The notes beneath the pieces are model-generated. The model was given only the letters and a program-made list of their open reading frames with translations. It ran no database searches and was not told the origin of the DNA. Positions 9,801 through 39,779 of a stretch of 64,000 bases of DNA are shown here, one piece after another. Made by a program: the position numbers and the translations under genes. This stretch comes from Phaeospirillum sp. (GTDB lineage Bacteria > Pseudomonadota > Alphaproteobacteria > Rhodospirillales > Magnetospirillaceae). Where the stretch lies: the NCBI GenBank assembly GCA_030651575.1, contig JAUSFB010000030.1:331623-395622 (forward strand), given 5' to 3'. The first letter of the stretch is position 1, and every line of letters starts with the position of its first letter.

Positions 9801-10502
9801 TTATTTTCCGCCTAGCAGCGCCTCGACCTCGGGCAGGGCGTCGGGGGTGCCCACATGGTACCAGCCGCCGTCATGGACCAGGCCGAACAGGCGGCGCTCG
9901 GACAGGGCGCGATCATAGAGCAGGTTGAGGGAGAACGCGCCCGCCGGACAGCCCTCGAACAGCCGGGGATGGAGAATCTGGACGCCGGAGAACAGCAGCG
10001 GCGCGCTGTCGGCCTCGCCCCGTCGGCGCAGCGTATCGTCGGCGTTGATGAAGAAGTCGCCCTTGCCCGCATAGCCCACGGCGGTCGAGATGGGTTGCAG
10101 CAGCAGCAGCGCGTCCATGTCGGCGGAGTTCCAGGTTTGGGCCAGCCGCACCAGGGCGGGAGTCTCGCCATCGGTCCAGATGATGTCGCTGTTGACCACG
10201 TAGAACGGCTCGTGCCCCAGCAGGGGCAGGGCCTTGGCGACGCCGCCGCCGGTCTCCAGCAGCACGTCTTCATGCGATAACGAGATGTCCGAGCGGTCGG
10301 CGAGGTGTTCCCTGACGCTGTCGGCCAGCCAGTGGGTGTTGACCGCCAGTTCTTGAACCCCGGCCAGGGCCAGATGGTCGAGGGCGCGGTCCAGCATGGT
10401 GCGCCCCGCCACGCTCACCAGCGGTTTGGGAGTCGTCAGGGTGATCGGCCGCATGCGCAGGCCCAGCCCCGCCGCCAGCACCATGGCGCGTTTGATCATC
10501 AT
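9801..10502 (-). CDS. murU: Nucleotidyltransferase, MurU-like (N-acetylmuramate-1-phosphate uridylyltransferase)
   Basis: MVLAAGLGLRMRPITLTTPKPLVSVAGRTMLDRALDHL; overlaps an AmgK-like kinase gene upstream. Confidence 0.85.
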   Translation of the reverse strand: MMIKRAMVLAAGLGLRMRPITLTTPKPLVSVAGRTMLDRALDHLALAGVQELAVNTHWLADSVREHLADRSDISLSHEDVLLETGGGVAKALPLLGHEPFYVVNSDIIWTDGETPALVRLAQTWNSADMDALLLLQPISTAVGYAGKGDFFINADDTLRRRGEADSAPLLFSGVQILHPRLFEGCPAGAFSLNLLYDRALSERRLFGLVHDGGWYHVGTPDALPEVEALLGGK

Positions 10503-34401: not shown

Positions 34402-34439
34402 AGCCCTGCTCCCCTTCCCCCATGGCGGGAAGGGGAGGT

Positions 34440-34736
34440 TCAATGCTCGTGATCGTGACCTTCCAGTTCATCCTCGGCATGACGGTGTTCATGCGGCTTC
34501 CAGGCGTGTTTCGGCTGGTCGTGGCCGTGGTCATGGGCCTCGCTGGCGGCGTGGCCGTGGGGATGGCTATGCTGGTGCCCGTGTTCATGGGCATGGGCAT
34601 GGGCGTGGGCATGGCTGTGGACCTTGTCGCCATGGGTGTGCGGGTGGGCGTGAACGTGACTGTGCTCGTGGGCGTGCTGGTGCTTGTGCTCGTGCCCCTG
34701 CGCCTCGCCGTGGTCGTGATGATGACCGCCGTGCAT
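34440..34736 (-). CDS. Extremely histidine-rich small protein, putative metal-binding/storage
   Basis: MHGGHHHDHGEAQGHEHKHQHAHEHSHVHAHPHTHG...; preceded on minus strand by GGGAGGAGGAGC-ATG (strong Shine-Dalgarno). Confidence 0.7.
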   Translation of the reverse strand: MHGGHHHDHGEAQGHEHKHQHAHEHSHVHAHPHTHGDKVHSHAHAHAHAHEHGHQHSHPHGHAASEAHDHGHDQPKHAWKPHEHRHAEDELEGHDHEH

Positions 34737-34849
34737 GCTCCTCCTCCCGTTCAGCGATGTTCCGATCCTCGGAGTTTAGCGCAAATCAGTTGGTGCGGTG
34801 AAGGGGGAAGCCACGGGCGTGCCGATTTACAGAGGCTTAATAAATAAAA

Positions 34850-34869
34850 TTACATAAAATTTTATGTAA
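34850..34869. repeat. Perfect 20-bp AT-rich palindrome
   Basis: TTACATAAAATTTTATGTAA is identical to its reverse complement; lies in AT-rich intergenic island. Confidence 0.9.
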
Positions 34870-35009: not shown

Positions 35010-36212
35010 ATGGCTCAGGCAAAGGCGGCGAAGATAGTCGGTGGCGGCAAGACCCGCCCCCCAGTTACGTCCGACCCCGGGGTCGAGGCGATCCGAGGGG
35101 CGCTGGAAGGTCCGGTCATCGACGTTTTCCGGCGTGAGGTGGGGGAGTTGAAGCATCTGCCCCGCCCTGCCGCCTACGAGGCGGTGATGAACGACCCCAA
35201 GATGCTGGACCGCTGCTTTCGCCTGTTCCGCACCCAACCCGAACTGTTCCGCGATGTGGTGGTCAGCGGCGCCCGCAAGCCTGTGCTGGAGGATCAGGGC
35301 GTGCTGTCCTGCGGCCGAACCCTGGCCGATGCGGTGGCACTGGTGGTGCGGGCCTCGGCGCGCCGTTATTTCCGGGCCAAGCTGGATTTCCGCCGCTTCA
35401 AGTCGCCGGTGGTCAAAATTCCGTTGCTGCGGCGGGTGGCGATCTCCCTTGGTCTGGCAAATCCGCCGGTGGTCAGGAAGGGGCCAAAGCCGGTCTCGCG
35501 GTCCGAGGCGCTGTACACCGCGATCCGCGAGCATCTCCAGTTCGACTGGCAGGTTTTGTTGATCCCTCACTATGCGCCCATGACCCCGGCGCTGGTGACC
35601 GATCTGGGGTCGCGCCTGCTCGACATCCGCGAAGCCGCCGAATTGCAGGCCCTGTCGGCGCCGGGGGCGACGCCTCGGGATGGGCGGACGCCGCTTTTGC
35701 TCGACGGCGCCCAGCGGCTGATGATGCCGGGGCGCGACGCCGTTGATGCCGAGATTTTGTGGCGGGTGGTTCAACAGATGGATCTGGCCCGGCTGTTCCC
35801 CAAGGCCGAGGCCAATCAGATCCGCCGGTCGGTAGCGCAGGTCTCGGCCATCCATGGCGATGTGATCAAAGCGCTGATGCCGGCCCTGGGCGGCGAGATC
35901 CGGCGCTTCACCGCCTTCCTGATGATCGCCTATGTGACCCTGGGCGAGCAGCGGTTCAAGCAGGAGTTCTGTCAGGGCGGTCAGGTCCACGCGGCGCGCA
36001 AGCTGGCCGAGCGGCTGGCCAAGGTCGCCGCGCCTCCCCTCAGCCTGGAGGAGATGAAGCGGGTCTATCAGGCGGTGTTGAGCACCGCCTATGTGGGCGG
36101 CGTCGAGTCGGATGCCAGCGGCGAGGCGCTGCTGAAGGCACGCCCGGAGCTGCTGAAGGCCCTCGGCGCGCTGGGTGGCGGCAAACCGGTCCCGGCCTCG
36201 ATTTCAGGTTAG
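35010..36212 (+). CDS. Uncharacterised 400-aa protein
   Basis: Long intact ORF with own AT-rich upstream region; no motif recognised. Confidence 0.7.
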   Translation: MAQAKAAKIVGGGKTRPPVTSDPGVEAIRGALEGPVIDVFRREVGELKHLPRPAAYEAVMNDPKMLDRCFRLFRTQPELFRDVVVSGARKPVLEDQGVLSCGRTLADAVALVVRASARRYFRAKLDFRRFKSPVVKIPLLRRVAISLGLANPPVVRKGPKPVSRSEALYTAIREHLQFDWQVLLIPHYAPMTPALVTDLGSRLLDIREAAELQALSAPGATPRDGRTPLLLDGAQRLMMPGRDAVDAEILWRVVQQMDLARLFPKAEANQIRRSVAQVSAIHGDVIKALMPALGGEIRRFTAFLMIAYVTLGEQRFKQEFCQGGQVHAARKLAERLAKVAAPPLSLEEMKRVYQAVLSTAYVGGVESDASGEALLKARPELLKALGALGGGKPVPASISG

Positions 36213-36842
36213 CCGTCCCGCCTCCAGCCGGACCTCCCGGTTGGCGAGGCGGTCCAGCACGTCGCGGTCGTGCGAGACGATCACCATGGCCAGGGGCAAC
36301 CCCGCCAGAATGTCCAGCAACCGCGCCCGCGTCGCGTCGTCCAGCGCGTTGGTGGGCTCGTCCAGCAGCAGCGCCTCGGGCCGCATGGCCAGCACCGCCG
36401 CCAGCGACACCAGCCGCCGCTGACCACCCGACAGTTTGTGGGTGACCCGATGCTCCAGCCCCTCCAGTCCCAGTTCGCTCAGGGTCTGGTGGACGATGAC
36501 GCGGGCCTCGGCCTTGGTCTTGCCCTGGTTGAGCGGCCCAAAGGCGACGTCCTCGGCGACGGTGGGGCAGAACAACTGGTCGTCGGCGTCCTGGAACAAC
36601 AGGCCGGCCCGCGCCCGGACCTCGACGAAATCCTTCTCGGCCCGGCGCGGGCGGCCAAAAGCGATGACCCGGCCCGCCTGGGGCGTCACCAAACCCACCA
36701 TCAGATGCAGCAAGGTGGTCTTGCCGGCGCCGTTGGGGCCGTTCAGCGCCACCTTGTCGCCGGCCGACAGGGTGAAGTCGATCCCGTCCAGTACCGGCCG
36801 GGCGGTCTCGTAGGCGAAGCGGACGTCTTCCAGCCGGATCAT
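36204..36842 (-). CDS. cbiO: Ni/Co ECF-type ABC transporter ATP-binding protein
   Basis: MIRLEDVRFAYETARPVLDGIDFTLSAGDKVALNGPNGAGKTTLLHLMVGL; LSGGQRRLVSLAAVLAMRPEALLLDEPTNALD; clustered with CbiQ and CbiM. Confidence 0.92.
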   Translation of the reverse strand: MIRLEDVRFAYETARPVLDGIDFTLSAGDKVALNGPNGAGKTTLLHLMVGLVTPQAGRVIAFGRPRRAEKDFVEVRARAGLLFQDADDQLFCPTVAEDVAFGPLNQGKTKAEARVIVHQTLSELGLEGLEHRVTHKLSGGQRRLVSLAAVLAMRPEALLLDEPTNALDDATRARLLDILAGLPLAMVIVSHDRDVLDRLANREVRLEAGRLT

Positions 36843-36847
36843 GACCG

Positions 36848-37612
36848 TTACGCCGCCACCAGCAGCAACGCGGCGCAGGAGGCCGCGCCAAAGCCCCAGT
36901 CCAGCATTCCCGGCCGCTCGGACCCGGCATCGTCAAGTGAGGGAAAATGGCCGGTGAAGCCGCGGCAGCGCATGGCGGCGTCGATGCGCTCGGCTCGCTC
37001 CAGCGACCGCACCATTAGCATGCCGAACAGATAGCCGACCGAGCGCCAGCAATGGGGGCCGCAGCCGGGGCGGAAGGCCCGCGCCCGCATGGCCAGCCGC
37101 AGCCGGTCGTATTCGCGCTCCAGCACCTCGATATAGCGGATGGTGAACAAGAACAGATGGATCAGCCGTTCTGGCGCGCCCAGGCGGCCCAGGGCGCAGC
37201 CCAAGGACACAACCTCCATGGAGCCCACCAGCGCCATCACCGCCACCGCGACGGCATTGGCGCGCAAGGCGATGGCCGCCGCCTGGGCGAGGCCCTCGGC
37301 ACTGGCGGCGAAGCCCAGCGGCTCGGCCAAAATCCGTCCCGGCACGGTGAAGGGCAGCAGCGCCAGCACGACCAGCATAAAGCCCTCCAGCGCCAGCAGA
37401 CGCCGCAGGGTCTGGCGCGGCGACAGTCGCGCCAACACCGCCAGGATCACCGCCGCCATTAGGGCCAGGGTCAGCGAGGCCAGATTGTCGGCCATCACCA
37501 CGGTCAGGGCGAACAGGACCGCCAGCAGCACGCGGGTGCGGGGGTCCAGCCGTCCCACCACCGAGGATTCCGCCAGGGGGCGGGCGGCGTCGAGGATGCC
37601 GGTTCGGCTCAT
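36848..37612 (-). CDS. cbiQ: Ni/Co ECF transporter transmembrane protein CbiQ/NikQ
   Basis: RLDPRTRVLLAVLFALTVVMADNLASL; AMRARAFRPG; RSLERAERIDAAMRCRGFTGHF. Confidence 0.9.
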   Translation of the reverse strand: MSRTGILDAARPLAESSVVGRLDPRTRVLLAVLFALTVVMADNLASLTLALMAAVILAVLARLSPRQTLRRLLALEGFMLVVLALLPFTVPGRILAEPLGFAASAEGLAQAAAIALRANAVAVAVMALVGSMEVVSLGCALGRLGAPERLIHLFLFTIRYIEVLEREYDRLRLAMRARAFRPGCGPHCWRSVGYLFGMLMVRSLERAERIDAAMRCRGFTGHFPSLDDAGSERPGMLDWGFGAASCAALLLVAA

Positions 37613-38148
37613 GATGGGCTCCTTCGTCGCGCCGAGACCCAGGCGGCGATGCCGAAAATTCCAAAGATGGTTCCGACGCCGCCCATGATGTCGTGGAGGC
37701 GGACCTTGTCCTCGTAGGCGTCCAACTGTTGGCGCAACGGCCGGATCTGCCGCGCCACCGCCGCCTCGACCGCGTCAAGGCCGGCCACGGCCGGGAGAGG
37801 CGGCGGTGTCGGGAGGGCGGCCGGTCCCGCAGGCAGGGTCTGCGGCAATTCAGCCGCCCCGATCGTCACGGTGGCCATGTGGCCGTCGCCCCCGTCCATG
37901 GTGACGCTGTGGTCGGTGCGGGACCGGACCTCGAAGCGGAACGCCCCATCCTGGTCGGTCCTGACTTCACCGGCCATGCTTCCATCGGCCATGCGCACCA
38001 CGCCGCCGACCCCCACGGCCTTGTCGCCGCCGGAGAAATAGGCGGTGCCGAGAATGACCGGCCCTTCGACCGTGGCGAACAGCTTCAGCTTGTGGGCCTG
38101 GGCCGGGGTGGCGAGCAGCAGCAGGGCGAGCGGCAGCAGTATTTTCAT
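37609..38148 (-). CDS. NikL-like exported component of Ni/Co uptake system (signal peptide, C-terminal TM)
   Basis: MKILLPLALLLLATPAQA-HKLKLFATVEGPVILGTAYFSGGDKAVGV ... C-terminal TM IMGGVGTIFGIFGIAAWV; located between cbiQ and cbiM. Confidence 0.8.
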   Translation of the reverse strand: MKILLPLALLLLATPAQAHKLKLFATVEGPVILGTAYFSGGDKAVGVGGVVRMADGSMAGEVRTDQDGAFRFEVRSRTDHSVTMDGGDGHMATVTIGAAELPQTLPAGPAALPTPPPLPAVAGLDAVEAAVARQIRPLRQQLDAYEDKVRLHDIMGGVGTIFGIFGIAAWVSARRRSPS

Positions 38149-38756
38149 GCCGGCCTCGCCAGCATCTCGGGCTTGACGCGAGACAGCAGGGCGATGGCGG
38201 CGGCGGTGAAGGCCGCCTCGATCACCATCACCGGCAGATGGGTCAGCGCCACCAGACGGGCGGCGGCGATGAATTCCCGCCCCGACAGGGCCAGGGTCAG
38301 CGCCACCATCAGCGCCGTCAGCAAGACCGCGCCGCCGCCGGCCATCGCTCCCAGCAGCGACGCCCTGGCCCGGCTGGAGCCGTCGCGCCACAGCAGTCGG
38401 AACAGGCCGCCGGCCAGCAGGGCCGGGACCGCCATGTCCATGGTGTTGACTCCCAGCGCCACCAGACCGCCGAAGCCGAACAACACCGCCTGCAACACCA
38501 GCGCCACCAGCATGGCCGGGAACACCGCCGGACCAAGCACGATGCCGGCCAGTCCGTTCAGCAGCAGATGGACCGAGGCGAGGCCGGCGGGAAAATGCAC
38601 CAGCGAGGCGACGAACAACACCGCCGACAGCACCGCCACCTTGGGCACCCTGACGGGGTCCAATCCCCGCAGGCCGAACGCCACTCCGGCGACGCTGACA
38701 ACGGCTCCCGCCATCAGCACCGGGTTGGACAGAACGCCATCGGGAATATGGGCCAT
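38145..38756 (-). CDS. cbiM: Ni/Co ECF transporter substrate-specific component CbiM/NikM
   Basis: MAHIPDGVLSNPVLMAGAVVSVAGVAFGLRGL; VHFPAGLASVHLLLNGLAGIVLGPAVFPAMLVALVLQAVLFGFGGLVALGVNTMDMAVPAL. Confidence 0.93.
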   Translation of the reverse strand: MAHIPDGVLSNPVLMAGAVVSVAGVAFGLRGLDPVRVPKVAVLSAVLFVASLVHFPAGLASVHLLLNGLAGIVLGPAVFPAMLVALVLQAVLFGFGGLVALGVNTMDMAVPALLAGGLFRLLWRDGSSRARASLLGAMAGGGAVLLTALMVALTLALSGREFIAAARLVALTHLPVMVIEAAFTAAAIALLSRVKPEMLARPA

Positions 38757-38876
38757 AGTATTTTTGTCCTCAGTCGCCGGCGCGGGCCTCCGCCCGCTTG
38801 GCTTTCGCGGCATGTGCCGCGCGCCCTCAATGGGCATGGTCGCTTCGCTCCGGGTATTTCTGTCCTCAGTCGGTTC
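38757..38876. repeat. Mosaic intergenic repeat related to 9650-9800
   Basis: CAGTCGCCGGCGCGGGCCTCCGCCCGCTTGGCTTTCGCGGCATGTGCCGCGCGCC resembles the 9650-9705 unit. Confidence 0.6.
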
Positions 38877-39641
38877 CTACTTCATATCCACGGTTCTGAC
38901 CCAGATCAGGCCGCCCATCTCGACCTTGGCCGGCTTGCCGTTCGGCCCCTTCATGGGTTTGTCGCCGTCCAGCAGCGCGGCAAAGCCCCACCAGCCGGCG
39001 CGCGGCATGGAATAGGCGAACTGGCCCAAGGCGTCGGCCTTGATCACCTGGGTGATGAACGGATCGGACGGGGGGGTGACGCTGCCGTCGTTGCGCCACT
39101 CCACCTCGATGGCGGCGAAGGGCGCCGGCTTGCCCGCCTTGCGCACGACGCCGCGAAAAGTGTTGCCGGTCCACAGTCCGTAGGGCCGGACCAGCGGCTC
39201 GATTTCCACGGGGTGACCGACCGGTCGGTCCCAGCCGCCGCCCGAGCCGAAATCCACCACAACCTTGGTGTAGTGAATGATCCACTTGCCCTCCGCCGCC
39301 TCCCAATAGGGCGCCGGCTCGACAAAGAAAACATGGTCGCCCGGCTTGTCCACCGTGTAGGCGGCCCCGAAGCCGGTCTTGTCGCCCAGCATCCTAGGCT
39401 TCAGCGTCGCGGTCAGATCCTTGACCTTGCCACCGGCCAGCACCCCAAAGTGGGTCGGCGGCGCCATGGTCATCACCGGGCCGCGCTCCATGGGGTGGGT
39501 GAAGGCCAGATCGAGCCGCACGGTGCGGTCCCCCTGCTCGGGCAGGATGTCGGCCGAGGGGATCAGCTCCAGGAAATGGGCGACGGCCGGCGATGAAGCC
39601 AGCAGGGAGACCATGCAAAGGGCAGAGGCGGCGCGGTGCAT
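38877..39641 (-). CDS. DUF4198 family exported protein (NikK-like, putative metal binding)
   Basis: Signal peptide [21 protein letters not shown] then [38 protein letters not shown]; adjacent to Ni/Co ECF genes. Confidence 0.83.
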
Positions 39642-39779
39642 GGGCAGGAAATCCCCCGAAAGATTATGCGACAATGTCCATGACTGTCTGGAGCATACCC
39701 GGGGCGGACGCAAAACTCCATGGCCGAAATCAGGGTCGCCACCCACCCGTTGGGGTCGCGTCGCACCGGCGACTCCGAC

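Follow-up and report, generated by a model that had tools for sequence, protein, structure and literature searches.

The window analysed here, a 64,000-nucleotide stretch of a contig from Phaeospirillum sp., contains on its minus strand an open reading frame (34440–34736, ATG to TGA) encoding a protein of 98 amino acids with a molecular weight of 11.2 kDa and a pI of 6.4, in which 38 residues (38.8%) are histidine and none is cysteine. The frame is preceded by a Shine–Dalgarno region (GGGAGGAGG; 34737–34751, minus strand), with AACGGGAGGAGGAGC-ATG as its 5' context, and contains two strict (H-x) runs, at residues 15–35 with 11 His and at residues 40–62 with 12 His. The N-terminus contains no hydrophobic segment, the GRAVY value is −1.9 and no signal peptide was seen by eye, from which we infer a cytosolic location. 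The initial annotation, made from the DNA letters, had described a minus-strand frame of this length with about 38 His, mostly in H-x repeats, with a Shine–Dalgarno sequence before it and no obvious signal peptide, and was accurate in each of these respects.

The His-rich open reading frame is a real gene under purifying selection. Among the frames of at least 60 amino acids in the window, the runner-up in histidine content reaches 15%, compared with 39% here, so the frame did not arise by chance. Over 14 members of the genus the mean pN/pS is 0.13/0.60 = 0.22, and 61% of the nucleotide differences fall at third codon positions. Both CAC and CAT are used in 35 of the 36 invariant His columns, which indicates that what is kept is histidine and not a DNA repeat, and a GGGAG-type ribosome-binding site is found again in most congeners. 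On the opposite strand a frame stays open over 141 amino acids, and the His-rich frame could accordingly be read as a low-complexity stretch or as the mirror of a hydrophobic plus-strand open reading frame (34422–34847). However, this is highly improbable: the two frames have common codon boundaries and opposite phase, so that the variable third positions of the His frame would be the first positions of the antisense frame, on which ground the plus-strand frame was rejected. The pN/pS value and the kept start, stop and ribosome-binding site contradict a non-coding origin, as does the presence of the gene in an operon position in other genera.

Neither Pfam nor NCBIfam has a model that matches the protein, which apparently represents a separate His-rich family without a curated model. 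Homologues turned up in Rhodospirillales alone, in 37 of the 317 genomes of this order, and mostly in the family to which the window belongs; a sample of 385 genomes drawn evenly from the class contained no carrier except the window's own genome. Thirteen of 16 congeners carry the frame, as do other genera of the window's family, which answers in the affirmative the call of the initial annotation for conserved homologues. As shown by the comparison of 18 diverse and 20 close members, the two (H-x) runs, an HQHxHP stretch and a KPH[D/E]HxH tail are invariant, the tail taking the form WKPH[E/D]H in close members. The sole match in a sequence search of the PDB was the His tract of PA4063 (E = 0.018), which was taken as compositional. 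Likewise, a membrane-transporter-like frame in a Clostridia metagenome-assembled genome (L074, 670–1725) has a C-terminal (H-x) tail resembling the window protein; the resemblance is probably convergent, and the frame was rejected as a family member since only this tail matched. A His-rich frame of similar size in Siculibacillus lacustris (L075, around 9878–10177) has no KPH tail and was left aside.

Upstream of the His-rich gene, a divergent gene (35010–36212, plus strand) encodes a protein of 400 amino acids with no Pfam or NCBIfam match and no assigned family, which is syntenic across the genus. Its family has around 4–11 matches per genome in the genus, and across the genus one copy, in reverse orientation, separates cbiO from the His-rich gene. 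Beyond it, all on the minus strand, are cbiO/nikO for the importer ATPase (36204–36842; profile matches), cbiQ/nikQ for the transmembrane component (36848–37612; TIGR02454 above cut-off), nikL (37609–38142, start approximate; NF058648 above cut-off), nikM for the substrate-specific component (38145–38837, with the start perhaps nearer 38757; PF01891 and NF004905 above cut-off) and nikK for a DUF4198 protein (38877–39640, start approximate; PF10670). The order nikK, nikM, nikL, cbiQ, cbiO identifies a nickel-type ECF importer by Pfam and NCBIfam. The cluster had been annotated as CbiMQO-type at a distance of about 1.5 kb; the distance holds, and the cluster is now specified as nikKMLQO, with the 400-amino-acid gene on the opposite strand in between. 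Because of this reverse gene, the His-rich gene and the importer do not form a common operon in the window.

In other members of the family the arrangement is closer. The His-rich gene is the sixth and last gene of the nikKMLQO operon in 12 of the 29 family carriers, following cbiO on the same strand with a gap of −8 to +35 bp, and in ten, including the window, it is separated from cbiO by one reverse-oriented gene (four of the ten being judged from coordinates only). Three further carriers have a non-homologous importer alongside it (NiCoT in L067 and L073 and HupE in L057), and in four the gene is unlinked to nik, which counts against a nickel-binding role. The linkage that the initial annotation proposed to look for is thus strongly evident: in 25 of the 29 carriers the gene ends nikKMLQO, sits one gene off or adjoins NiCoT or HupE. 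Of the partner metals that had been put forward (Ni, Co or Zn), this linkage favours nickel rather than the three in general. The three carriers with a different importer are the weightiest evidence. In L067 the NiCoT gene ends one base before the start codon of the His-rich gene; in L073 the NiCoT gene is upstream, and an opposite-strand hemerythrin gene separates the two; and in Magnetospirillum sp. UT-4 a HupE permease is encoded divergently next to the His-rich gene. The pgi gene, which flanks nik in relatives, also adjoins the His-rich locus in UT-4 and L073, which argues that the importer was swapped while the His-rich gene was retained. Among the neighbours of the distant homologues outside the family, no nickel genes were recognized by eye, which counts against a nickel role. 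As for the client of the imported nickel, in a search of 60 relatives and the window's own genome [NiFe]-hydrogenase genes were found in all carriers and a full urease in few, a full-length match being missing in most; hydrogenase is therefore the likelier client and urease an unlikely one.

The same set of 317 genomes was searched for NikR. In the window's family the His-rich gene is present in 29 genomes and NikR in 19, and no genome has both; the hypergeometric probability of zero overlap is around 2e-9 on the assumption of 55 genomes and with kinship among them ignored. Since the genomes are related, switches between the two genes within a genus, which occur in genera g1 and g5, are better evidence than this figure. 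Of the three non-carriers in the window's genus, G006 and G015 possess NikR, whereas G004 lacks both genes and gave just one CbiM match, taken as the cobalt type; in g5 both non-carriers, G150 and G156, have NikR. Ahead of nikK, the nik operon of G006, G015, G150 and G156 has a dyad of NikR type, GTATGAA-N14-TCGTATTAC, and in G015 NikR itself lies around 40 bp downstream of cbiO in convergent orientation. Outside the family, the distant homologues of G191 and G253 co-occur with NikR, which counts against a nickel module. The exclusion within the family, which the initial annotation had not foreseen, suggests a role for the His-rich protein in controlling the nickel supply.

Carriers and NikR-containing relatives also differ in the leader of the importer operon. 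A short element, GTCGCATAAT (39663–39672, minus strand), lies just 5' of nikK in all carriers examined there, in one copy or two direct copies and with one mismatch in G003, and it also precedes the NiCoT gene of L073 and the hupE gene of UT-4; upstream of nikK in G006, G015, G150 and G156 it is absent. With one mismatch allowed, an extended pattern matches the window genome at this site alone, and G000, G007 and G011 each at a single site, in the nik locus. G152 has one match at the nik locus and two one-mismatch sites elsewhere, and of the three matches in G014 two lie at the nik locus and one ahead of the gene for a TonB-dependent receptor. A reversed control pattern gave two matches in total over the five genomes G000, G007, G011, G014 and G152. 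The receptor gene of G014 (L148, 1501–3015; P. kuznetsovii) is preceded by GTCGCATAATCTTTT and may encode an outer-membrane nickel receptor belonging to the same regulon. Predictions for the nikK leader gave no conserved RNA fold, so that GTCGCATAAT seems likelier to act as a DNA operator than as a riboswitch; an Rfam scan of the window gave no match, and a literature search with the element sequence returned only unrelated-looking papers. The promoter region of the His-rich gene itself in the window does not contain GTCGCATAAT, which counts against a nickel module. The region between this gene and the divergent 400-amino-acid gene contains a perfect 20-bp palindrome, TTACATAAAATTTTATGTAA (34849–34868), the core of which, ATAAAATTTTAT, occurs once in the window against an expectation of 0 and is retained in most congeners; the palindrome is a possible operator for either gene.

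AlphaFold predicted that the (H-x) runs form a two-stranded hairpin, both in the window protein and in a distant member. The hairpin spans residues 15–35 and 38–58 in the former, with a pLDDT of about 90, and residues 7–27 and 33–53 in the latter, with a pLDDT of up to 96, the remainder of each chain being uncertain. The pTM values of these models are low (0.32–0.35) and alternating sequences may favour the prediction of hairpins, so the hairpin remains a prediction. In either likely register His would lie opposite His across the strands, as deduced from residue numbering rather than coordinates. A structure search with the hairpin model gave no match below an E value of 0.7, and the weak matches, which were long hairpins of unrelated pore proteins, were rejected as trivial geometry.

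Gastric Helicobacter species are the best-known source of stand-alone His-rich nickel proteins, and Hpn and Hpn-2 of these bacteria share with the window protein a small stand-alone form, a very high His content and a nickel-using host. Hpn has 60 amino acids with 28 His and two Cys pairs, is induced by NikR and is a proposed nickel store (PMC4671568). In contrast, the window protein has 98 amino acids, no Cys, an alternating H-x pattern and a KPH tail, its gene adjoins importer genes, and searches found NikR neither in the window genome nor in the 29 family carriers; the protein is thus similar to Hpn in its composition and its presumed metal but lies outside that family. His-rich tracts tied to nickel or other metals are also known from HypB, CooJ, SlyD, ZIP and CDF proteins; there they form part of a folded enzyme, chaperone or transporter, whereas the window protein is nearly all tract. 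The tract of RcnA is similarly carried on a transporter (PMC11247825). The reported composition of NikKMLQO includes no His-rich component (PMC2667541), whereas the His-rich gene lies within the operon in the 12 genomes above. Membership of the importer operon is not constant, given the reverse gene in the window's genus, the four unlinked carriers and the three with NiCoT or HupE, and since the gene also accompanies these other importers it is better regarded as an accessory gene of NikKMLQO than as a subunit. With NikR it shares the niche beside the nickel importer, with a complementary distribution. The NikR of G015 (L149, 5836–6330) also has a His-rich tail at its C-terminus (SHHHHDDGDGHAHPHSHPHVH). 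However, the window protein contains neither the ribbon-helix-helix nor the NikR_C domain, both of which were matched by the NikR proteins of G015 and G156 as controls, and judged by its sequence it is not a DNA-binding repressor. Among the papers searched, none mentions a His-rich protein together with NikKMLQO, or together with both nickel and Magnetospirillum.

Focusing on the genome context, the product of the His-rich gene is probably a small cytosolic nickel-binding protein belonging to a NikR-independent nickel-uptake module. In the proposed mechanism, the two (H-x) runs would pair into a long β-hairpin with the His side chains all on one face, and this His ladder would reversibly bind several Ni(II) ions; the protein would thereby hold free nickel low while the importer is active and hand the metal on, the maturation of [NiFe]-hydrogenase being the most likely recipient and the KPH[D/E]HxH tail the likely contact with a partner. 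The protein may serve as a store or buffer, as the initial annotation had supposed, as a chaperone or as the sensor in a control loop. Together with the GTCGCATAAT element, the protein may form a module that does the job of NikR and its operator in relatives. The more specific proposal, that the His-rich hairpin protein and a regulator acting at GTCGCATAAT take the place of NikR and its operator, with switches in two genera or more, and check the nickel supply whichever importer is present, is tentative, with a chance somewhat short of even.

Two other roles for the protein are compatible with parts of this evidence. The nickel-loaded protein might mainly regulate uptake, through the importer or a GTCGCATAAT-binding regulator, and so replace the feedback by NikR. 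The mutual exclusion with NikR, the conserved non-His tail and the position adjacent to the importer, in one genome on the side of cbiO that NikR takes elsewhere, are consistent with this, and SlyD of H. pylori, which acts on the Niu permease, provides a precedent for a metal-binding protein that controls an importer by contact (PMC7840056). However, a dedicated contact with one importer is hard to square with the accompaniment of three unrelated ones, the protein has no DNA-binding domain and its gene is uncoupled from the nik promoter in the window's genus, so that we consider a mainly regulatory role unlikely. We regard as less likely still a general buffer for Zn, Cu, Co and Ni, with the proximity to importers as a local accident of the family: the distant homologues lie among unrelated genes, the gene is unlinked in four of the 29 family genomes and (H-x) runs of other proteins bind several metals, but neither the linkage across three non-homologous nickel importers nor the distribution complementary to NikR agrees with such a buffer.

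In conclusion, this study describes what is apparently a separate family of His-rich proteins, whose genome context ties it to nickel import and whose distribution complements that of NikR. The nickel-binding role favoured here predicts a second way of managing nickel uptake in these bacteria, for which GTCGCATAAT is the candidate operator sequence.
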